Source: a virus
DNA length: 33,219 bases
Virus record (IMG/VR): IMGVR_UViG_3300046533_000211
Coordinates: 1 to 33,219 of that record
Strand: one strand, 5' to 3'
Part shown: positions 8,446-28,392 of the stretch, in pieces
How positions within the stretch are numbered: the first letter of the stretch is position 1
How the letters are laid out: every line of letters begins with the position of its first letter
Made by a program: the position numbers and the translations under genes
The notes under the pieces: generated by a model
The model's input: the letters and a program-made list of their open reading frames with translations, nothing else
Databases searched by the model: none
Told to the model about the DNA's origin: nothing

Positions 8446-8501
8446 GACCGGCCTGGTGCCAGTCCTGTTGTCGAATATAGCCTACCGGGGTAGCAATTGA
8501 C
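8446..8501 (-). promoter_or_regulatory. Leader module 3: box, -10 and 5' hairpin
   Basis: On the - strand: TTGTCAATTGCTA box, -10-like TATATT (8474-8479) and hairpin GACTGGC, loop ACCAG, GCCGGTC (8446-8464, one G-U pair). The predicted start is about 8467. Drives 7440-8420. Confidence 0.72.
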
Positions 8502-8518
8502 AAGCTACCCCGGTAGGC
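8480..8518. promoter_or_regulatory. Perfect 15-bp inverted repeat over module 3 box
   Basis: Arms of 15 bases at 8480-8494 and 8504-8518 with a 9-base spacer (AATTGACAA on +). One arm lies between the box and the -10 of module 3; the other abuts the end of the AAA+ gene. It could form a terminator hairpin for the AAA+ message or be a dyad operator, or both. Confidence 0.75.
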
Positions 8519-8525
8519 CGGGTTC

Positions 8526-10118
8526 CTACAGATCCAGCTTGCGGGCTGGGCTGTCGGCCTCGACTGCCTTGGCGGCAGCCTGGGGGCTGGTGGCAGGACG
8601 GGCACGGCCTGCCCACTCCTTGCGGAGCCGGTCGATCTTCTCGGCAGCTGTCTTGGCCAGCGGCACGATGGTCTTGGCTATCCGCAGGATGTCATCCGTG
8701 GTGACCTCGCGGGCATCATCCGCAAAGGAGGTGAACATCGCCTCGGGCACCAGGGCAGCCAGCTCGGCACCCGTGAAGGTATCGGTTGCGTCTGCAATGG
8801 CAGGCAGGTCGATGCCGATGGTGTCGGCGTCCCGCCCGTTGGCCTTCAGTGCTGCAGCCATGACGGCCTCGCGCTCGTCGTGAGTGGGCACGTCGACCCA
8901 CCAGATCTCGTCGAACCTCCCCTTCCTCATCAGCTCCGGGGGCAGCTTGCTGGCGTCGTTCGCCGTGGCAATCACGAACGCGGAACCTTGGCGGTCCTGC
9001 ATCCAGGACAGGATGGCACCCAGTGCGTCGGCAGACACACCACCATCGCCCTGTTCACCCGTGGAACCGGCGAGCGCCTTCTCGATCTCATCCAGCCAGA
9101 CCACGCAGCGACCAATCGCCTCGATCACGCTGAGCGCCTTGCGGAGGTTGCCCTCGCTCTCGCCCACGTACTTGGACTTGAGCGCACCCAGGTCCAGCCG
9201 GATCAGCGGGACGTTCCACTCAGCCGCAAGGGCCTTGGCGCTGTAGGACTTGCCACAGCCTGGGACACCGATGACCATCGTGCCCTTGGGAGCCTGCAGG
9301 CCATAGGCCCGAGCAGCGGGGCTGAAGGCCAGCGACCGGCTGACGAGCCAGGCCTTGTAATCGGGCATGCCGCCCACGATGGACAGGCCACCGGCTGGCG
9401 GGTCGATCCACTCCAGGACACCCTCGCGGGCGATCACACGCTTCTTCTCGCTGGCGATGGTGGCCGGGTCGATCTTGCGGAGCTGGACCAGTGAGCGCGC
9501 GAAGCAGGCTTGCGCTTCCTCACCACTCAGGCCCACGGCTGCGTCGATGGCAGCATCCCGCTGGCCGTTGACTGCCGTCCTCTGCAGCTCCTCGGGCAGG
9601 GATGACACGGTGGCGTCCAGCAGGGCCGCGATCTCCTCACGGTCAGGCAGCGGCCACTCGATCACGGTTGCGTGACCAGCCAGCTCAGCGGGAATGTCGC
9701 CACTGGGGCTGATCACGATCACAGCCTGGGCGTTCTCACGGGCCTGGCCAGGAAGCCAGCGGGCCAGGTTGCGCAGGCGACGCAGTGTCATGGCGCTTGT
9801 CGGACCACTCAGCCACACTGGCAGGTCGCGCATGATCCACACGCCACGCTCACCACTGGTGTCCTTGATGATGTCCAGCGCGCCATCGGGATCGCCCACA
9901 CCCTGGTCTGTGGTCCTGCCGCTGATGCTGGCCACACCTTGGGCAATGTCCCAGGTCCTGGCCAGGTAGCCCGCTGAGGCAGCAGCCTCGAACAGGTACT
10001 TCTCGACCCGCGCTTCCTCGCGACTTACCACCCAGAGGAGTGGGTTGCGGGCACGCAGGAGGGCAGCCACATCAGCGGCAACGGTCTGCGAACGGGTTAC
10101 ATCTGCTTTCACGCTCAT
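8526..10118 (-). CDS. Ycf46-like AAA+ ATPase
   Basis: 530 residues. Residues 1-235 form a degenerate RecA-like domain (NPLLWVVSREEARVEKYLFEAA, AVIVISPSGDIPAEL). Residues 245-500 are a full AAA+ domain: Walker A GVPGCGKS (284-291), Walker B VVWLDEIEK (339-347), sensor 1 IATANDASKLPPEL (383-396) and RKGRFDE (398-404) with the arginine-finger region. Known: this two-domain layout is that of Ycf46-type proteins, distant from FtsH and CDC48; Ycf46 has been tied to photosynthetic regulation in cyanobacteria, and the role in phages is unknown. GGAGA precedes the ATG, and leader module 4 lies upstream. Inferred: a remodeller acting on a host or phage complex. Confidence 0.85.
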   Translation of the reverse strand: MSVKADVTRSQTVAADVAALLRARNPLLWVVSREEARVEKYLFEAAASAGYLARTWDIAQGVASISGRTTDQGVGDPDGALDIIKDTSGERGVWIMRDLPVWLSGPTSAMTLRRLRNLARWLPGQARENAQAVIVISPSGDIPAELAGHATVIEWPLPDREEIAALLDATVSSLPEELQRTAVNGQRDAAIDAAVGLSGEEAQACFARSLVQLRKIDPATIASEKKRVIAREGVLEWIDPPAGGLSIVGGMPDYKAWLVSRSLAFSPAARAYGLQAPKGTMVIGVPGCGKSYSAKALAAEWNVPLIRLDLGALKSKYVGESEGNLRKALSVIEAIGRCVVWLDEIEKALAGSTGEQGDGGVSADALGAILSWMQDRQGSAFVIATANDASKLPPELMRKGRFDEIWWVDVPTHDEREAVMAAALKANGRDADTIGIDLPAIADATDTFTGAELAALVPEAMFTSFADDAREVTTDDILRIAKTIVPLAKTAAEKIDRLRKEWAGRARPATSPQAAAKAVEADSPARKLDL

Positions 10119-10240: not shown

Positions 10241-10483
10241 ATGACAACTCAGGACCGCAAGCAGGATCGCAACCAGTTCGATGGCGATGCAGCCAATTTC
10301 GCCAACACCGCCCGTGCCCAGCTCAGTGCGTTCATCGACAACCTGGAGCAGATGGTCAGCAAGGGCCGAGATCTCCTGGTGGACATGGACGCGCGACTGG
10401 AGGACTTCGATGGCGGGAGCCGTCGCCTCACGGAGACGGAGACGGAGAAGCGGGAGAAGGTGCGTGCCGGAACTCGTTCTTGA
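10241..10483 (+). CDS. Small acidic helical protein on opposite strand
   Basis: 80 residues, helical and charged (FANTARAQLSAFIDNLEQMV, DLLVDMDARLEDF), ending in a Glu/Thr/Lys repeat. A -10-like TATCCA at 10229-10234 lies six bases before the ATG, so the message may be leaderless; there is no Shine-Dalgarno sequence. Its 3' end overlaps the HTH gene on the other strand by 56 bases. GC-rich third positions support coding. Function unknown. Confidence 0.6.
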   Translation: MTTQDRKQDRNQFDGDAANFANTARAQLSAFIDNLEQMVSKGRDLLVDMDARLEDFDGGSRRLTETETEKREKVRAGTRS

Positions 10484-10694
10484 TCTGGAACAGCCGCGCT
10501 GAACTCAGGCCCGTGACACCCATCAGCTGGCCCGAGGTGATGCCGTAGCGCATGGCCTCACGGATGAGTCCTCGCAGCTCCAGCTCGGCATCGAGGGCCT
10601 CCTGGCGCTTCTTGTCCAGCCGCACCGAGGCCTTGGAGATCGCGGCCATCCGGGCCACAGCCCACTCGGAAGTGTTGCGTTTGCGGTTACCCAT
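10428..10694 (-). CDS. Small HTH DNA-binding protein
   Basis: 88 residues. A basic start (MGNRKRN), a helix RLDKKRQEALDAELELRGLIREAM, then GITSGQLMGVTGLSSARLFQIKNEF, which reads as a helix-turn-helix, and a Pro/Ser tail. An open frame extends upstream to about 10814, so a longer product from a GTG or TTG is possible; AGGAAGG lies 11 bases before the chosen ATG. A dyad at 10741-10756 could be its own operator. The last 56 bases overlap the convergent gene at 10241-10483. Confidence 0.6.
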   Translation of the reverse strand: MGNRKRNTSEWAVARMAAISKASVRLDKKRQEALDAELELRGLIREAMRYGITSGQLMGVTGLSSARLFQIKNEFRHAPSPASPSPSP

Positions 10695-10740
10695 CGGTTT
10701 GCTGGCCTTCCTGGTGGCGGGAACCACCGCTGGAGGGTGA

Positions 10741-10756
10741 ACGTAAAAACATACGT
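10741..10756. promoter_or_regulatory. Candidate operator dyad ACGTA-N6-TACGT
   Basis: Five-base arms around AAAACA in an AT-rich patch, the only one in the 170-base gap upstream of the HTH gene. The rest of 10695-10864 shows no gene, only a short GCTAC/GTAGC hairpin near 10849. Confidence 0.4.
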
Positions 10757-10864
10757 TGACCTGGCGAAACGGCGAGTTTAAGAGGGGTGGTGTGGTGGTG
10801 CCCACGAAGGACAAAAGCCGCTCTCGGGGCCGCTGAGGGCCGGCAATCGCTACCTGGGTAGCTA

Positions 10865-10984
10865 TTAACGATCATTAGCTACATCCTCGTCGGGCGCGTC
10901 CCCGAGGTCCTCGATCAGGCCGAGGGCGAGCAGCAGGCTGACCACCCGAAGGCGCAGCCAGTGCAGGCCTTCAGCGATGGTCAT
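10865..10984 (-). CDS. Very small protein, function unknown
   Basis: 39 residues: an amphipathic, Leu-rich helix (GLHWLRLRVVSLLLALGLIE) and an acidic tail. The ATG overlaps the upstream stop by ATGA. It is the last gene of the leftward run that starts at 13102. Short, but the junction and GC-rich third positions support it. Confidence 0.5.
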   Translation of the reverse strand: MTIAEGLHWLRLRVVSLLLALGLIEDLGDAPDEDVANDR

Positions 10985-11217: not shown

Positions 11218-11357
11218 GAGCGGCCCATCCCCGCCCAGTCATCGAAGCTGCGATCCAGACCGGAGTAGTTCAACGGCTCCTCTGCCGCATCCTCCTTCAC
11301 GCCAAGGGTGGCCTTGCGCTCCTCGCGGTCCTGCCCGCACACGATGCAGGTGCTCAC
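11214..11357 (-). CDS. Very small CxxC protein
   Basis: 47 residues from GTG (GTGA overlap). CIVCGQDREERK near the start is a CxxC knuckle; the rest is acidic with a Trp near the end. Function unknown. Confidence 0.6.
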   Translation of the reverse strand: MSTCIVCGQDREERKATLGVKEDAAEEPLNYSGLDRSFDDWAGMGRS

Positions 11358-11680
11358 TTGATCACCTCCCCCGGCAGCACGTTCTCGGGCGTGCTCACGC
11401 TGATGCTGAAGGCAGTGAACGGGCGGTTCGGCCTGCCGTCCGGGCGCACCGGGTTCCGTGGGTCCACAGAGCGCCACAGCTCGAACGCTTCCGTGGAGGT
11501 GTAGCGGGTGGCCTCATCGAGGTTGGGTGTGGTGCGCAGGTGGGCCATCATCACCTGGCCGGTGAGCGGCTCCCTTCCGTCACGTGACGGATCGAACTCG
11601 ACCACATACTGCCCGTCGAACCCAGTCACCCCGCCATTGATCAGCCCGACCACCTGGATGACCACCTCAGTGCTGTCCAT
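11354..11680 (-). CDS. Conserved-looking protein, function unknown
   Basis: 108 residues. Beta-rich first half (VIQVVGLINGGVTGFDGQYVVEFDP), then LDEATRYTSTEAFELWRSVDP and PFTAFSISV. GAGGAGGAG precedes ATG at 11680, which overlaps the alpha-CTD gene end by 14 bases. The segment mentioning Asp/Pro/Gly turns resembles small actinophage proteins, but I cannot name the family. Confidence 0.6.
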   Translation of the reverse strand: MDSTEVVIQVVGLINGGVTGFDGQYVVEFDPSRDGREPLTGQVMMAHLRTTPNLDEATRYTSTEAFELWRSVDPRNPVRPDGRPNRPFTAFSISVSTPENVLPGEVIK

Positions 11681-12104
11681 CGTTCTCCTCCTCGTTGGCA
11701 GGCTCGGCCAGCCGCGCCAGCGACTGGGCACGGGCGATCTGGCCCATGATCTCGATCAGGCCCAGCATCTCCACCGGGGCCAGTTCATGCTGTGAGATCA
11801 CCCCGGAGCCATCGCCGTTCACGGTCACCTGGAGCAGGCCGAAGCGGTACACCGTGACATGCTCCACGTCGATCCTGCTGGGGCCGATCACGTCGGGCTG
11901 CACAGGCCTCAGCCGCAGCCCGTGGCGCTCCAGCCCCTCCTTGACGGAGTCCAGGTCCTTCTGGCTGAAGCCACGGAAGCTGAGCAGGTCCATCTCGGTC
12001 ATCGCGGTCAGGGCATCCACGCTGCAGACGCCCTCGCGCTTGAGGATGTTGAACGCCCGCACCGTGAGGTCCAGGTCCTCGATCTGGAGCGGCACAATGG
12101 TCAT
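11667..12104 (-). CDS. RNA polymerase alpha C-terminal-domain-like protein
   Basis: 145 residues. Residues about 8-65 match the RNA polymerase alpha CTD (two helix-hairpin-helix motifs): IEDLDLTVRAFNILKREG, then VDALTAMTEMDLL and GFSQKDLDSVKEGLERHGL. Aligned by eye to E. coli alpha, the DNA-contacting Arg265, Asn268 and Lys298 are kept (Arg16, Asn19, Lys49); Gly296 is Ser. The rest (75-145) is a beta segment and a helical acidic tail, with no alpha N-terminal domain. Known: the alpha CTD binds UP-element DNA, sigma and activators. Inferred: a phage factor that mimics or competes with host alpha. ATGA overlap sets the start. Confidence 0.8.
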   Translation of the reverse strand: MTIVPLQIEDLDLTVRAFNILKREGVCSVDALTAMTEMDLLSFRGFSQKDLDSVKEGLERHGLRLRPVQPDVIGPSRIDVEHVTVYRFGLLQVTVNGDGSGVISQHELAPVEMLGLIEIMGQIARAQSLARLAEPANEEENDGQH

Positions 12105-12817
12105 CGGGCTAGCGCCTTCCATCGGTCCAGCATCTCCTGCCAGTCGGCCTTCCATCGGGCCAGCGTCCCCTTCCACTCCGCGACCTGCCAGCTGACCTCG
12201 TCCTTGCCTTCCCCTGCGTCACTGAGTTCATTGAGCACATCGAGCAGGTTGGTCATGTCACCAATCACATTGGTGTCCTCGATGTTTGGCGGCTCAGGCA
12301 GCTTGGCCTCGGCCATGATGGCGCGTCGGAAGATCTTGTTCGCCAGCACCCGCAGGATGGCGTGGTCCTCTAGGAAGTCCTGCTGTTCGGCATCGGGCAG
12401 CGGCTCAGCGATCACCACGAGCTGAGCCTTGTCGGTGCTGAAGGTGTACACGCCCTGCGGCCCCTCCTCCTGGGGGTGGCAGTATTCGCAGTCCTCCTCT
12501 GCTCCGGGGTGCATGACGTGGACCTTGCCGCCGTCCGGGCCGGTGAAGGTCAGACTGTCCTCATCGACCGGCTGATGAGTGGCATGCGTGGCAGCCTGAG
12601 CTGGCGGCAACACGTCACCGCCCCATGTCTCCACCTCGACGGCCCTGCGCTCAGGGGTGCGCTCGATGTACTGCGCCGGGGTCACGATGGCGATGCCGCT
12701 GGTCATCTCGGGGTCGATCTCCGGGTGGGTGAACCCACCGTCGTAGCCCTCCATGTCACCATCCGGGTCGTCACCCAGGTCGACGTGCTCCACGTCAAGG
12801 GGTTCATCCTTGGTCAC
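12101..12817 (-). CDS. Acidic protein with CxxC knuckle, function unknown
   Basis: 238 residues from GTG (GTGA overlap). The acidic N-terminus (LDVEHVDLGDDPDGDMEGY) leads to a beta part with VHVMHPGAEEDCEYCHPQ, a possible CxxC/His zinc site near 110, then LVVIAEPLPDAEQQDFLEDHAILRVL and a long C-terminal helix with repeated Trp-Lys (VAEWKGTLARWKADWQEML). No enzyme motif. It directly precedes the alpha-CTD-like gene; a functional link is possible but unproven. Confidence 0.65.
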   Translation of the reverse strand: MTKDEPLDVEHVDLGDDPDGDMEGYDGGFTHPEIDPEMTSGIAIVTPAQYIERTPERRAVEVETWGGDVLPPAQAATHATHQPVDEDSLTFTGPDGGKVHVMHPGAEEDCEYCHPQEEGPQGVYTFSTDKAQLVVIAEPLPDAEQQDFLEDHAILRVLANKIFRRAIMAEAKLPEPPNIEDTNVIGDMTNLLDVLNELSDAGEGKDEVSWQVAEWKGTLARWKADWQEMLDRWKALAR

Positions 12818-13120: not shown

Positions 13121-13160
13121 GGGTGGGTGCCCAGGAATCGTGATGTCCGGGCACCCACCC
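13121..13160. terminator. 12-bp inverted repeat, terminator or leader hairpin
   Basis: Perfect arms at 13121-13132 and 13149-13160 with a 16-base loop, between the secreted-protein gene and the 42-residue gene. There is no T run. It may end the upstream message or serve as a 5' hairpin of the next, as it sits 18 bases before the start codon. Confidence 0.6.
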
Positions 13161-15307: not shown

Positions 15308-15468
15308 CAGTCCACCTCCAGCTGATCAGGGCTGTAGTAGCTCGGGCGGTCCCGGCAGTCCCACAGGACTCCGATGGTGATGGTGCCCTTCGCAAGCACC
15401 TTCACCACGGACCCCTCGCTGGTGCGACCACACAGCCGCACCCGGTCGCCAAACTCTGGTGACCTCAT
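15304..15468 (-). CDS. Small beta-rich protein downstream of Ku
   Basis: 54 residues predicted as a small barrel: GDRVRLCGRTSEGSVVKVL, then TITIGVLWD and YYSPDQLE. The shape resembles SH3-like or KOW-type domains. ATGA overlap with the Ku gene, so it is translated with Ku. Confidence 0.58.
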   Translation of the reverse strand: MRSPEFGDRVRLCGRTSEGSVVKVLAKGTITIGVLWDCRDRPSYYSPDQLEVDW

Positions 15469-16277
15469 GCCGCCTTGCCCTTCACGCTGGCTTCGAGCTT
15501 GGCCAGCAGGTCTGACACGTCAGACGGGGCCACGTCATCGGCCTCGGTGATGTCCAGCTCCACACCTTCAGCCTTGGCCTCGATGAGGCTGGTGAGCCGG
15601 TTCGTGTAGGTGTCCACGTGGGCGTCCTTGTCGAACTTGCCCACCATGCTGGCCACCAGCTTCTCGGCCATGTCCAGTTCGGCGGCACTGTACTCAGCAC
15701 CCAGGCCGGGGACAGTGGCCTCACGGACCTCATCGGCCCAGCGCAGGGTGTGCAGGACCAGAACGCCCTCCACGACCCGGATGGCAGCGATGTGGGTCTT
15801 GGCCCTCATGGTGAACTCGGCAATCGCCACCAGCCCGCTGGACGCCATTGCGTTGGCAAGCAGGGCATACGCCTTGGAGGGCCGCACGGTTTTCTCGCTG
15901 CCGACCTTCCCACCACCCAGGTAGTAGCTGTCCTCGAACATGATGGGGTCGATCTCGGACTGGTCCACGAACTGCAGGATCTCGATCTGCTTCCCACGCT
16001 CGCCCTCCAGCTGGGCCAGATCATCCTCGGTGATGGTGACCAGGCTGCCGCCCACCTCAATGCCCTTGACGATGTCGCCGTAGGCCACATCCTCGCCGCA
16101 TTCCTTGCAGACGCGCTTGAGTGAGATGCCGCCCATGCAGGTCGGGCCGAGTGACCCTGGCCGAGCATGGTGCTGGTGGAAGCTGACATCGTGGTTATCG
16201 GTCGCCTTATAGAGGGCGACTGGGAACTGGACCAGCCCGAAGCCGAGCTGCCCCGTCCAGGTGCTGCGCATTGCCAT
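15465..16277 (-). CDS. ku: Ku protein (non-homologous end joining)
   Basis: 270 residues covering the bacterial Ku core: STWTGQLGFGLVQFPVALYKAT at the start, KRVCKECGEDVAYGDIVKG near 55-72, DPIMFEDSYYLGGG and a helical C-terminus. Known: Ku homodimers encircle DNA ends and recruit ligase D; mycobacteriophages Omega and Corndog encode Ku, which can act with the host ligase to circularise their genomes. No ligase is in this window, so host LigD is the expected partner. AAAGGA lies six bases before the ATG. It has its own leader module 8, so it may be expressed early. Confidence 0.93.
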   Translation of the reverse strand: MAMRSTWTGQLGFGLVQFPVALYKATDNHDVSFHQHHARPGSLGPTCMGGISLKRVCKECGEDVAYGDIVKGIEVGGSLVTITEDDLAQLEGERGKQIEILQFVDQSEIDPIMFEDSYYLGGGKVGSEKTVRPSKAYALLANAMASSGLVAIAEFTMRAKTHIAAIRVVEGVLVLHTLRWADEVREATVPGLGAEYSAAELDMAEKLVASMVGKFDKDAHVDTYTNRLTSLIEAKAEGVELDITEADDVAPSDVSDLLAKLEASVKGKAA

Positions 16278-22023: not shown

Positions 22024-22239
22024 TCACACTGGTTCGTGCGGTTTGAAACCGAAATACAGTCGTGGCTGGTGGGTGAACTCCAGCGTGCCCACCACGCCAT
22101 CGGACTTGCGCCTGACGGCCACGTAGGGCGCACCGAAGCCCATCACCTCGAAGTCCTTCTGGAGCTGCTCGGTGTCCCAGGTCTGGCCCTCGGGCTGGTT
22201 GCCCGTGCCGTAGTCCTTGATGTGGATGTCGTCGCTCAT
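22024..22239 (-). CDS. Small protein, function unknown
   Basis: 71 residues; a helical/beta mix with TEQLQKDFEVMGFGAPYVAV and a C-terminal YFGFKPHE. ATGA overlap with the WhiB-AP2 gene. A DNA-binding or adaptor role cannot be judged. Confidence 0.62.
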   Translation of the reverse strand: MSDDIHIKDYGTGNQPEGQTWDTEQLQKDFEVMGFGAPYVAVRRKSDGVVGTLEFTHQPRLYFGFKPHEPV

Positions 22240-22667
22240 GCCATCACCTTCCGACGCACCGGGCTGGTGCCCAGCTCTTGATGCAACGTCAGGGCCTTGG
22301 CCTCGGCCCGTTCCTTGTCAGTGTGCGTGCCGCCGTAGCGCCTCTTGTCACGGGTGCAGATGACGACCTGCCAGCGCGAGCGCCAGCGGTTCCAGGTCAC
22401 ACCCTTCACGTCGCTGACCTTCCCGCGCCCCGGCACTGGGCGCACCTTCTCGGCCTCTGGCGGCGGCAGCGGATGGCCCTCCAGCAGGGCCTTGCGCTCG
22501 TCCTCGGTCTTGCCACCCCAGATCCCGAACTCGATCCCGTGCTCCAGCGCATGATCACCGCAGGCCTGCTGGATCGGACATCGCCCACAGATCGCCTTGG
22601 CCTTCTCGATGGCATCCTTGGTGCCGATGAACCACAGCTCGGGGTCCTCCCCGAAGCAGGCGGTCAT
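22236..22667 (-). CDS. WhiB-like Fe-S regulator fused to AP2-like domain
   Basis: 143 residues. Residues 1-55: WhiB domain with C4, C27, C30, C36 (C-x22-C-x2-C-x5-C), the Trp-containing N-terminus and the GIWGG turn (48-52). Residues about 90-135: GVTWNRWRSRWQVVI, then RRYGGTHTDKERAEAKALTL, matching the AP2 (ERF/integrase-type) DNA-binding fold. Known: WhiB proteins hold a 4Fe-4S cluster and act with sigma A; phage WhiB (as in TM4) can down-regulate host whiB2 and affect superinfection. A WhiB with an AP2 arm is unusual. ATGA overlap sets the start. Likely a redox- or sigma-linked transcription factor with its own DNA reader. Confidence 0.82.
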   Translation of the reverse strand: MTACFGEDPELWFIGTKDAIEKAKAICGRCPIQQACGDHALEHGIEFGIWGGKTEDERKALLEGHPLPPPEAEKVRPVPGRGKVSDVKGVTWNRWRSRWQVVICTRDKRRYGGTHTDKERAEAKALTLHQELGTSPVRRKVMA

Positions 22668-25484: not shown

Positions 25485-25978
25485 CAGAGCGTCCCAGCGC
25501 TGGCCGGGTGCCCAGGTGGCGGGTTCACCTCCACAGGCACCGTCCCCGAGGATGGCGTCAGAGCGATCTGGCAGGCCAGCACGGCACTCCTGGGCCGACC
25601 CATTCCACCAGCCCACACGTCGATGTGGTTCCCACCGCAGGCAGCGCAGGAGTCCTCCACGATCAGGTACTTCGCCAGGTACGGCAGGTAGAGCCGGGTG
25701 CCGGGGGGCCACCGCCCACCGGCCACCGTCGTCGGGTTGTCGTAGGTGCCCACTCCCCCAGCCTCGGAGTGGCGCGGGGCTGGGCCGGGGTAGCGGATGC
25801 GGGCGCTGTACGGCGGGTCGTTGTCGGGGTAGCCGTAGAAGGTCAGCGTGACACTGGCCGTGCTGTCTGCCGATGCCCTACAGGCCAGCTTCTCGCCGAG
25901 TCCCGTGAAGATCAGGACGATGATGATCATCCCCACCACGAACCAGGCCGTCAGGTTGATCTTCTGCCACACGGTCAT
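25481..25978 (-). CDS. Membrane-anchored double-psi barrel (3D/RlpA-like) protein
   Basis: 165 residues. N-terminal membrane anchor (INLTAWFVVGMIIIVLIFTG), then a beta domain with LTFYGYPDNDPPY, YLPYLAKYLIVEDSCAACGG and HIDVWAGG. The YLPYL-x-KY-x-IVEDxCxxC...DVW pattern is that of small 3D or double-psi beta-barrel secreted domains, which occur in cell-wall lytic or sugar-binding proteins. It is translated directly after the polysaccharide synthase gene (TGATG), suggesting joint action at the envelope. Convergent with the + gene ending at 25484. Confidence 0.68.
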   Translation of the reverse strand: MTVWQKINLTAWFVVGMIIIVLIFTGLGEKLACRASADSTASVTLTFYGYPDNDPPYSARIRYPGPAPRHSEAGGVGTYDNPTTVAGGRWPPGTRLYLPYLAKYLIVEDSCAACGGNHIDVWAGGMGRPRSAVLACQIALTPSSGTVPVEVNPPPGHPASAGTLC

Positions 25979-28392
25979 CACCGGCCTGCGATGGCCACGG
26001 TGTTCAGCCGTTCCAGCTTGTCCCAGGAGAACTCGGCACCCTTGAGCACCCGGTACAGGCAGGCGTAGAGCAGGTACACGCGCATCAGCTCATAGATCGG
26101 TCGATAGAGCGGGACCACCAGCAGATGCACCAGACTCTCCTTCGCAATCGCCACGGCGGTGATGGCGATGATCGTGTGCATGACGAGCACCACCAGCGCG
26201 AACGCGACGATTGGATGCCAATCCCCCTGCGCCGCCGTGATGCCTGCCACCACCAGCAGGATGGGAAGAAATAGCAGGTTCATCAGGAGCTGAGCCACCG
26301 AGTACGGCATGGTGACCATGCCGAGCACACCGTAGCTGGGCCGGAACAGCATCGCCTTGTTCTTCCACATCACCTGGAAGTTGCCGAACATCCAGCGCTT
26401 GCGCTGCTTGAGTAGCGGGACCACGGTCTCGGGTGCCTCGGTGTCGCAGATCGCGTGGTTCTCATGCAGCACCGCATAGCCCAGCCGCTGGAACGTCATG
26501 GCCGCGTCGGCATCCTCGGCCAGGGTGTCCTCACTGAACCCACCGATTCGCTCCAGGGCGACCCGTCTCCAGGCCGAGCAGGCACCCGGCACGATGCCCA
26601 CCGCACCGACCATCATCTCGGCCATGCGGATGATGCAGATGCCGTTGAGGTACTCCAGCGACTGCCAGGCGGTGAGGATGTTGTTGCGGTTGCCCACCTT
26701 GACGTGACCGGCCACCGCGCCCACGATCTTGCCCCCGTGCACACCCGTGATGAAGTGGCGGGCCAGCTTGCGGATGGTGTCCTTGCGGAACAGGGTGTCG
26801 GCGTCCATGGTCATGATCACGCTGCTGCGTGGGTCCGCATGCCTGACGGCATTGTTCAGGGCCGTCGACTTCCCGGCGTTGCGCTGGTCCACCACCTTCA
26901 GCTGGGGCCAGTCGTAGGCCTGCAGAAGTGACAGCGTGTCATCCTTCGAGCCATCGTTGACCGCAATGACCTCGAAGCGGTTCGCTGGGTAGTCACTCTC
27001 GCGCAGCATGTCCAGCGTGCGCGTGATGACCTTCTCCTCGTTATAGGCAGCCAGGCACACACTGACGAAGGGCAGCTCATCCTCCGGGGTATCCGGCCAG
27101 GCCTTCCTGCGCTGCCGCCACTCGTTGATCACCGACAGGATCAGGTAGAGGCCGGTCAGGATGAGCATCGACCCCACACCGAACCAGAACACCGCCGTGA
27201 GCGCCTTCCGTGGGAGCACGTGAACGGTCTGAATGAAGAACAGCGTGGCCCGGTCGGAGAACGATGGCGTGACGTGCCGGGGCAGGTCTCGCTGAGGCAG
27301 GATGTAGCCCGCCGTGGCGAACTTGTAGCCCTGCGCCTTGGCCTCATGGATCAGCTTCTCCAGCATCGCCACCGTCCCGGCGCGGCTCCTCCCACCGGCA
27401 TCGTGCATGATCACGACGTGCCCGTTGCCATCGAGCTGTGGGACAGGCACCTCCCGGCCCTGAGCATCGAACTCCCAGTCATGGCTGTCGGTGTCGAAGA
27501 GGACCTGGAGGTAGCCGAGCTGCTGCGACTCCAGCTGGGCCAGGCTGTTGACCTCCGGTTGCCCGGTGGGGATGCGGAAGATCGGCGAGGCATAGCCAGC
27601 CACGGCCCGCAGCACACGGTCGGTCAGGTTGATCTCCTGCTGGTTCTGGAAGTCAGAGTGGGCGTCGAACGTCTCGGGGTGCGTCATGGTGTGGTTGCCC
27701 ACCATGTGGCCCTCTCGGATCATCCGCTGGACCAGCTCGGGGTGGTTGGCCACGTTCTGCCCCACCACGAAGAACGTCGCAGGGACATGCTCGCGGGCCA
27801 GCACATCGAGGACCTCCCTGGTCCACACCGGGTCCGGGCCGTCATCGAAGGTCAGGATTAGGGTGCGACCAGGGACCGAGCCGTAGCGGTCCACCGCAAA
27901 GGCATTGCTTCCGATGGTCTGGACCTCGTAGTCGTTGGCGTTCCTGATGAACTCACCAGTGACCGCATCGACCAGCCTGACCGGGGGCGGGGGTGGTGGG
28001 GCGGGCGGCTCAGGCATCACCATGTCAGGCACGCCGTCACCATCGAGGTCATCAGGAATGCCGTCACCGTCGTAGTCGGGTGCCGGGATCGGCTGCAGCA
28101 GAGCAGGATCAGGCCCAGGTGGCGCGCCGCTGCCGGTGTGCTCACGCTCCACCCGTACCAGCCGAGTGAAGATGCCATGATCCTGATCGCCGACCAGTGG
28201 GAGATTGTCATGCTCACCCAGCGTGCGGCGTGCCCAGCCCTCATCGGAGTGGGCACCCCGCACCGGGGAGAACACAGAGGGCAGCAGGATGGCCCCGGCC
28301 CCTCCGATCAGCAGCAGCAGCAGGAACACACTGAGCGCCACCCGAGGTAGCCGCTTCCCGCTCTTGTCGTAGAAGATGGGCGGGCCGCTCAT
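25978..28392 (-). CDS. Polysaccharide deacetylase fused to GT2 glycosyltransferase
   Basis: 804 residues. One membrane anchor (17-37); calcium-binding-type repeats DYDGDGIPDDLDGDG (106-120) in a Pro-rich linker; NodB deacetylase with TFDDGPDP (181-188), HTMTH (234-238), FRIPTG (272-277), DSHDWEF (302-308) and IMHDAGG (328-334); membrane helix near 400-420; GT2 domain with AAYNEE (448-453), DGSKDD (480-485), DAD (530-532), EDAD (626-629) and QRKRW (663-667); membrane helices 695-750. Known: bacterial fusions of this type make and deacetylate chitin- or poly-GlcNAc-like polymers (PgaC/NodC-like synthases). It is complete, with all key residues present. In a phage it could alter the host surface. 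Overlaps the next gene by TAATG. Confidence 0.9.
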   Translation of the reverse strand: MSGPPIFYDKSGKRLPRVALSVFLLLLLIGGAGAILLPSVFSPVRGAHSDEGWARRTLGEHDNLPLVGDQDHGIFTRLVRVEREHTGSGAPPGPDPALLQPIPAPDYDGDGIPDDLDGDGVPDMVMPEPPAPPPPPPVRLVDAVTGEFIRNANDYEVQTIGSNAFAVDRYGSVPGRTLILTFDDGPDPVWTREVLDVLAREHVPATFFVVGQNVANHPELVQRMIREGHMVGNHTMTHPETFDAHSDFQNQQEINLTDRVLRAVAGYASPIFRIPTGQPEVNSLAQLESQQLGYLQVLFDTDSHDWEFDAQGREVPVPQLDGNGHVVIMHDAGGRSRAGTVAMLEKLIHEAKAQGYKFATAGYILPQRDLPRHVTPSFSDRATLFFIQTVHVLPRKALTAVFWFGVGSMLILTGLYLILSVINEWRQRRKAWPDTPEDELPFVSVCLAAYNEEKVITRTLDMLRESDYPANRFEVIAVNDGSKDDTLSLLQAYDWPQLKVVDQRNAGKSTALNNAVRHADPRSSVIMTMDADTLFRKDTIRKLARHFITGVHGGKIVGAVAGHVKVGNRNNILTAWQSLEYLNGICIIRMAEMMVGAVGIVPGACSAWRRVALERIGGFSEDTLAEDADAAMTFQRLGYAVLHENHAICDTEAPETVVPLLKQRKRWMFGNFQVMWKNKAMLFRPSYGVLGMVTMPYSVAQLLMNLLFLPILLVVAGITAAQGDWHPIVAFALVVLVMHTIIAITAVAIAKESLVHLLVVPLYRPIYELMRVYLLYACLYRVLKGAEFSWDKLERLNTVAIAGR

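Follow-up and report, generated by a model that had tools for sequence, protein, structure and literature searches.

The stretch of DNA analyzed here (33,219 nucleotides, hereafter the window) makes up the first third of a virus record of 97,219 bp. On its minus strand, positions 11667-12104 form an open frame of 145 codons followed by a stop codon, which encodes a small protein (hereafter the query) harboring a C-terminal domain of the RNA polymerase alpha subunit (alphaCTD) (Table 1). The plus-strand translation of this interval does not encode the alphaCTD protein. According to the gene calls, the gene sits within a long leftward series of small genes, and it overlaps both of its neighbors, as in a coupled operon: its ATG shares an ATGA (12101-12104) with the stop codon of the upstream gene, and its end runs into the downstream gene. 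A GGAAGG read by eye is located at 12115-12120, 10 nt ahead of the ATG. Longer starts are available, namely, a GTG at 12122 (151 aa), which was the choice of the gene caller, and position 12176, where the longest frame begins (169 aa); the ATG at 12104 was preferred over both. The coding score of the gene in a simple gene caller was 69.6.

Table 1. Features of the alphaCTD gene and its neighbors (positions in the window; residue numbers refer to the 145-aa protein)
Feature	Position	Strand	Remarks
Free-standing alphaCTD gene	11667..12104	minus	145 aa; ATG at 12104, TGA at 11667-11669
Upstream gene	12101..12817	minus	238 aa; no family match; shares ATGA with the start of the alphaCTD gene
Downstream gene	11354..11680	minus	108 aa; no family match; 14-nt overlap with the end of the alphaCTD gene
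alphaCTD domain, residues 6-66	11907..12089	minus	Pfam match (residues 6-59), solved-structure search, predicted fold
Residues 8-12 (I-E-D-L-D)	12069..12083	minus	E. coli 257-261, sigma region 4 contact; both acids kept
Residues 44-54 (RGFSQKDLDSV)	11943..11975	minus	E. coli 293-303, latter half of the DNA-binding determinant; N294, G296, S299, and E302 replaced, K298 kept
C-terminal domain, residues 75-133	11706..11882	minus	Predicted short strands, then one long helix; relatives not found

Several other features were seen around the gene. A 33-nt tandem pair, 82% alike, lies at 12114-12179, in the 3' end of the upstream gene and just ahead of the alphaCTD start. Strong inverted repeats without a clear T run are found between operon genes at 13121-13160 and 8480-8518 and are possible processing or regulatory hairpins. 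Two operator-like palindromes, at 10740-10757 (AACGTAAAAACATACGTT) and 10859-10881 (TAGCTATTAACGATCATTAGCTA), are located near a small helix-turn-helix gene (10428-10727); each occurs once in the window, and no tie to the alphaCTD protein was found. Promoter and terminator scans gave results at chance level. A search of IMG/VR with the upstream gene matched 14 stretches, none of which was confirmed as a relative.

Residues 6 to 59 of the query matched Pfam PF03118 (RNA_pol_A_CTD) with 55.1 bits (E 6.4e-15; gathering cut-off, 23.8 bits), a match far beyond chance, and when the entire record of 97,219 bp was searched in six frames, the alphaCTD gene was the sole PF03118 match (56.6 bits). In a sequence search of the PDB, the closest solved chains were mycobacterial RpoA (E 1.4e-14 to 3.6e-14), among them 5tw1, which is M. 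smegmatis by title; further matches came from Streptomyces (7vpd, 4e-12), Bacillus (3gfk, about 1e-10), Thermus (1doq, 4.5e-8), and E. coli (1lb2, 6e-6). The mycobacterial alphaCTD and the query share 52% identity over 73 aligned residues. AlphaFold2 modeled residues 11 to 60 with a pLDDT of 92 to 96 (29 sequences). Searching this model with Foldseek returned 18 PDB matches at E ≤0.001, all titled alphaCTD or RNA polymerase complex entries (1z3e_B, E 5.5e-5), and VIA-align superimposed it on the E. coli alphaCTD (8y5l_A2) with a Z of 12.0 over 65 aligned residues (rmsd 1.4). The N-terminal domains of Dmc1/RAD51 ranked lower (Z about 8.4). We also considered an origin from a generic helix-hairpin-helix (PF14520 HHH_5), which was ruled out by its score (14.7 bits against a cut-off of 27) and by the fold matches.

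NCBIfam RpoA models aligned to the query through their C-terminal 60 to 70 positions only, with a best score of 56.9 bits against a whole-protein cut-off of 434. With 145 aa, or 169 at most, the protein lacks the alpha N-terminal domain and is not a member of the RpoA family. Family match and predicted fold together establish that the phage protein carries a bona fide alphaCTD, free-standing and phage encoded: it has a single alphaCTD and no alpha N-terminal domain, and it belongs to a phage with structural genes. A first-pass annotation of this DNA had recognized a free-standing alphaCTD without an N-terminal domain at 11667-12104, and had proposed to weigh it by structure prediction and comparison with mycobacterial RpoA against other helix-hairpin-helix families. 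This identification is borne out by the PF03118 match, the predicted fold, and the length of the protein, and what we add to it is the minus strand.

That annotation had also called the C-terminal part new, which holds in the sense that Pfam, PHROG, PDB, fold, and tblastn searches found no relatives. Indeed, the best Pfam match had an E value of 0.11, PHROG and the PDB sequence search returned no match, tblastn against phages gave nothing better than E 1, and no paralogue was found among the predicted proteins of the phage. The predicted structure of this domain is of low confidence (pLDDT 71 to 75 over residues 81 to 130 in the full model; mean 67 when modeled alone from a single sequence), and fold searches with it reached at best E 1.0 and a VIA Z of 3.3. 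The likeness of its strands-plus-helix layout to PC4-like coactivators (6ycs_A, Z 2.1) is far too weak to claim.

By sequence, the record is that of an actinophage of 97 kb with relatives among the mycobacteriophages. Its terminase shares 54.5% identity with the terminases of Mycobacterium phages Typha and Hilltopfarm, and its AAA ATPase (8526-10118) is about 53% identical to those of Firecracker (Corndogvirus) and Catdawg. The host would probably be a relative of Mycobacterium. At the DNA level, megablast of positions 8501-33219 against phage records gave no match. The same phage harbors a Ku-like gene (15465-16277), an 804-aa protein (25978-28392, minus strand) that combines polysaccharide deacetylase and family 2 glycosyltransferase domains, and a WhiB-like gene (22236-22667, minus strand; PF02467, E 3e-20). 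The C-terminal part of the WhiB-like protein resembles the DNA-binding end of HNH endonucleases (best PHROG HNH match, E 8e-8) and gave an AP2 match under the AP2 cut-off (E 0.0022), and this protein may carry its own DNA reader.

The alphaCTD gene is rare among related phages. Through the terminase or the ATPase we found 68 IMG/VR loci and searched the records of 50 of them, many of which are fragments. PF03118 was found in none of the 50, while the same family was detected in 9 of 14 control genomes; the query protein itself was likewise found in 0/50, in a search that ran without a positive control. The region around the ATPase of Firecracker contains no annotated alphaCTD, most genes there being annotated as hypothetical. 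Searches with the whole protein, whose reach is close relatives only, matched 4 stretches in IMG/VR and 47 in GTDB genomes, none of which was confirmed.

Searching with an alignment of the query and the mycobacterial alphaCTD matched 92 IMG/VR stretches, which gave 16 loci, and at least 595 genome stretches, which gave at least 589 relatives; we retained the top 80 of these. A broader alignment, of actinophage alphaCTDs, proved too variable to be searched with. The best 80 of the at least 589 relatives are 40 to 59% identical to the query over the aligned stretch (top, 59% over 61 aa), and in 80/80 the match begins at or after residue 200 of an RpoA-length frame, so none of these 80 is a free-standing alphaCTD. 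In a 63-column tree, the query was placed among actinobacterial RpoA with weak support and flagged long branches, in a clade that also contains Salmonella and Acinetobacter RpoA and with an actinobacterial set picked by similarity to the query. The PDB scores, which fall from mycobacterial to E. coli RpoA, agree with this placement. We infer that the alphaCTD was derived from a host actinobacterial rpoA.

We also searched 151 Mycobacteriaceae genomes. PF03118 matched in all 151, and at least 8 of them had a second match, which in seven of eight cases lay in open frames of 751 to 1,515 aa and in the remaining one in a 73-aa frame, under the cut-off. Among the matches listed, none in the 151 genomes was a small free-standing alphaCTD above the cut-off. 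As for the large proteins, the PglW of Mycobacteriaceae locus L203 has its PF03118 match after the kinase part, and those of L200, L201, and L202 show, by eye, an alphaCTD-like domain followed by a sigma-region-4-like helix-turn-helix. PADLOC gave only a weak MzaA match for L200 (0.003) and L202 (1e-6).

We then compared the residues of the query with the eight-residue DNA-binding determinant of the E. coli alphaCTD, which we take to be positions 265, 268, 269, 294, 296, 298, 299, and 302. In this order, the query reads R-N-I-G-S-K-D-S, that is, three residues kept and five changed (C269I, N294G, G296S, S299D, and E302S in E. coli numbering). Residue 299 presumably faces the DNA, and the query has an aspartate there. 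The complete set of eight, which we used to define an UP-element binder, is not present in the query. It is intact in 30/30 distinct actinobacterial RpoA domains, which were picked by similarity to the query. PMC5101437 places R265, N294, and K298 in the determinant, and PMC5511352 does so for R265 and N294, which are bridged to DNA by water. The first-pass annotation had stressed that the DNA-contacting Arg, Asn, and Lys are kept. This is correct for the counterparts of R265, N268, and K298 (R16, N19, and K49), but it was incomplete, as the five other determinant residues are replaced. Its suggestion of binding to UP-like DNA loses ground: because C269, N294, G296, S299, and E302 are all replaced, UP-element binding is predicted to be poor, and because R265, N268, and K298 remain, some DNA binding may persist. 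The changes are only suggestively concentrated in the determinant, with 5/8 determinant positions changed versus 10/37 other near-invariant positions (Fisher p 0.068).

The protein-contacting side of the domain has a different record. The acidic pair 259/261 is kept in the query as D10 and D12, as expected by sequence of a sigma-contacting alphaCTD, and Thr-Glu-x-Asp is kept at 285-288, which we take to be the activator-facing surface. In PMC5511352, acids 259/261 are described as contacting sigma region 4 and as conserved in M. smegmatis (D253/D255).

To place the query among phage proteins of this kind, we collected other phage-borne alphaCTDs. Such domains were found in Bacillus phage Goe8, Ruegeria phage V16, Microbacterium phages Mazun, Morrill, Atraxi, and TrippleS, Mycobacterium phages Zenteno07 and Mithril, and Rhodococcus phage Finch. 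Goe8, V16, Mazun, Atraxi, and Zenteno07 score above the Pfam cut-off, and Finch, with 22.9 bits, falls just below it (23.8). The genes of Finch, Mithril, and Zenteno07 are annotated as "hypothetical protein" in GenBank. The phage collection also gave short unannotated records (Listeria, Enterococcus, Staphylococcus, Salmonella, and "Bacteriophage sp."), of which L181 was counted. An alphaCTD protein is also mentioned for Erythrobacter phage vB_EliS-L02 in PMC9127768. Most of the other phage-borne proteins carry the alphaCTD at the C terminus; in V16, Finch, and viral loci L020 and L023 it is at or near the N terminus, as in the query, and the partners there are different and longer. Five full-length rpoA genes (L176, L177, L178, L179, and L180, the last a 316-aa RpoA) were excluded as phage alphaCTDs. 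Phage-collection records OR846589, OR844994, CAKLQH020000003, AFYI01000003, and MT835508 hold full-length rpoA and are probably host contamination or bacterial contigs.

Several viral proteins from the IMG/VR loci (L013, L014, L018, L021, L025, and L027) appear by eye to be fusions of sigma-70 region 4 and an alphaCTD, which was confirmed by Pfam for L014 only. In the host, region 4 and the alphaCTD contact one another at the boundary between the -35 element and the UP element. The N-terminal parts of Zenteno07 gp68 (L182) and Mithril gp57 (L185) look winged-helix-like by eye; in Pfam, that of Mithril gave a marginal LexA-type match (E 0.057) and that of Zenteno07 none.

Across the collection, the state of the determinant differs. 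Out of eight positions, 3 are changed in Mazun, 4 in Morrill, 4 in Atraxi, 3 in Zenteno07, 5 in Mithril, and 5 in Finch, versus 0 to 2 in 16 other phage-borne alphaCTDs. The residue comparisons excluded L017 and L022, which duplicate L016 and L020, and L026, whose frame is too short. With Mazun, Morrill, Zenteno07, Mithril, and Finch as the actinophage group (Atraxi was omitted, its determinant being identical to that of Morrill), the difference from the 16 others, with kinship ignored, gave a Mann-Whitney p of 0.00032 without the query and 0.00013 with it; L180 was omitted from this test, L181 was counted, and L023 was counted among the 16 others. L023, whose alphaCTD lies on a contig of 67% GC and groups with actinobacterial RpoA, has only 1/8 positions changed.

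The actinophage alphaCTDs have also diverged elsewhere. Besides the query, they have 21 to 28 of the 37 other near-invariant positions changed, and V16 has diverged at 27/37, about as much as Mithril and Finch (28/37). In Mazun, 3/8 determinant positions versus 21/37 others are changed (Fisher p 0.92), and in Morrill 4/8 versus 23/37 (Fisher p 0.85). Since neither shows an excess in the determinant, the distinguishing mark of these actinophage domains is a loss of protection of the determinant, which the other phage alphaCTDs retain. The actinophage contrast may therefore reflect lost protection of the DNA face together with general divergence, and not a targeted stripping.

Based on the residues, we tentatively favor, at somewhat less than even confidence, that in the query an alphaCTD of host origin has been put to use in docking to proteins rather than in binding UP elements. 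The phage would use the alphaCTD of an actinobacterial rpoA as a protein in its own right, joined to a new C-terminal domain and presenting the surface that touches sigma region 4 and activators while its grip on A/T-rich promoter DNA would be weakened. Such a protein could dock on region 4 of sigma-A or capture activators that bind the alphaCTD. As an adaptor, the alphaCTD would bring the C-terminal domain to the polymerase at phage promoters; as a decoy, the protein would compete with the host alphaCTD and thereby lower activated host transcription. Either is compatible with our data, and we cannot choose between the two. The kept acids at 259/261 and the Thr-Glu-x-Asp at 285-288 favor tethering of sigma or activators, or blocking of host alpha, as a putative role. 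A point against docking is that some actinophage alphaCTDs lack the sigma-contact acids, positions 259/261 being T/R in Zenteno07 and T/G in Mithril. No close homologues of the query were found by which constraint on any surface could be gauged.

The protein could instead bind DNA through its helix-hairpin-helix domain, at UP-like sites of phage or host, alone or as a dimer formed by the C-terminal domain, and act as an ordinary regulator or DNA-bending protein. The kept counterparts of R265, N268, and K298 and the predicted intact fold are what one would expect of such a binder, and the alphaCTD proteins of Mazun, Morrill, Atraxi, and TrippleS are indeed annotated as DNA binding. We nevertheless consider this unlikely, given the replacement of N294, G296, S299, and E302, with an aspartate at 299, and the absence from the 33-kb window of any 25-base stretch at ≤28% GC. 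Thermus offers a relevant case. Its alphaCTD determinant reads R-H-S-G-G-R-S-E, with a glycine at 294 as in the query, and, as reported in PMC5511352, Thermus RNA polymerase, which lacks some determinant residues, shows no UP-element response. Gly294 thus occurs in an UP-unresponsive polymerase, although one that also lacks N268 and C269.

Two further explanations appear less probable still. The gene might be a decaying passenger, a piece of host rpoA captured by chance and now drifting, whose residue changes would be meaningless. Its absence from the 50 related phage records is as expected of a recent neutral capture, but the frame is intact, coupled through ATGA, and well scored as coding, the fold is predicted with high confidence, the protein has a further 75 aa of its own, and 40 to 50% divergence from host RpoA has accumulated without a stop; we regard such decay as improbable. 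The remaining explanation is that the protein serves in counter-defense, as a decoy for host alphaCTD-like proteins such as the BREX kinase PglW or the large proteins with alphaCTD and sigma-region-4-like domains. The second PF03118 matches in Mycobacteriaceae, seven of eight in large frames, would be candidate targets, and PADLOC identifies one of these frames, L203, as PglW (E 3e-252), but nothing indicates that these host domains have a partner that a free alphaCTD would titrate away, and the alphaCTD protein itself has no PADLOC match. This makes a counter-defense role very improbable.

Returning to docking, the wider collection raises a broader, rather doubtful generalization, namely, that actinophages repeatedly took an alphaCTD, lost its grip on DNA, and kept the domain, blind to DNA, for docking, in fusion with phage-specific domains, as an adaptor or decoy for sigma-A region 4 and activators. 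If true, transcription takeover by subunit mimicry would form a class undescribed in the literature searched, and a small set of genes now annotated as hypothetical or DNA binding would become likely takeover factors. To our knowledge, how host RNA polymerase is redirected is poorly known for most actinophages. A phage protein that copies one well-understood surface of alpha and loses another would provide a direct test of which alphaCTD contacts are important in mycobacteria, and the query might serve as a natural reagent for telling contact with sigma or activators apart from the binding of UP elements. In the literature searched by title and abstract opening, with subscription papers mostly outside, we found no functional study of a phage-encoded alphaCTD, and the word "phage" is absent from the main text of a 2026 review on the alpha subunit (PMC13374769). 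A different phage attack on alpha is described in PMC7552054, in which Rac of phiKMV-like phages leads to cleavage of alpha.

Among known systems, the query is related to the alphaCTD of mycobacterial and actinobacterial RpoA (PDB 5TW1 and 5VI8), with which it shares sequence, predicted fold, the sigma-contact acids, and R265/N268/K298. Unlike RpoA, it lacks the alpha N-terminal domain, carries the alphaCTD at the N terminus instead of the C terminus, has an extra C-terminal domain, and has C269, N294, G296, S299, and E302 replaced. The Thermus alphaCTD (1DOQ) resembles it in the glycine at 294 and the reduced determinant, but is part of a full RpoA and differs in which residues are affected: N268 and C269 are changed and K298 is an arginine, while G296, S299, and E302 are kept. 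Among phage proteins, Mithril gp57 and Zenteno07 gp68 (Bclasvirinae; identified as alphaCTDs by domain name and by Pfam match, respectively) are like the query small, with one alphaCTD, a reduced determinant, and a glycine at 294. They are only 22 to 27% identical to it, however, carry the alphaCTD C-terminally after an unrelated N-terminal part, and have lost the sigma-contact acids. Mazun gp26, Morrill gp24, and Atraxi gp24, annotated "DNA binding protein," also have a single alphaCTD in about 140 aa and 3 to 4 of 8 determinant positions changed, but here the alphaCTD is C-terminal behind a different 70-aa part, and identity to the query is 25 to 27% for Mazun and Atraxi. The viral fusions such as L014 equally harbor a phage-borne alphaCTD, but in L014 it is joined to sigma-70 region 4 (PF04545), and its determinant is intact (0/8 changed). 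Since phage alphaCTD proteins have already been annotated elsewhere, the kind is known, and the query is a variant of it.
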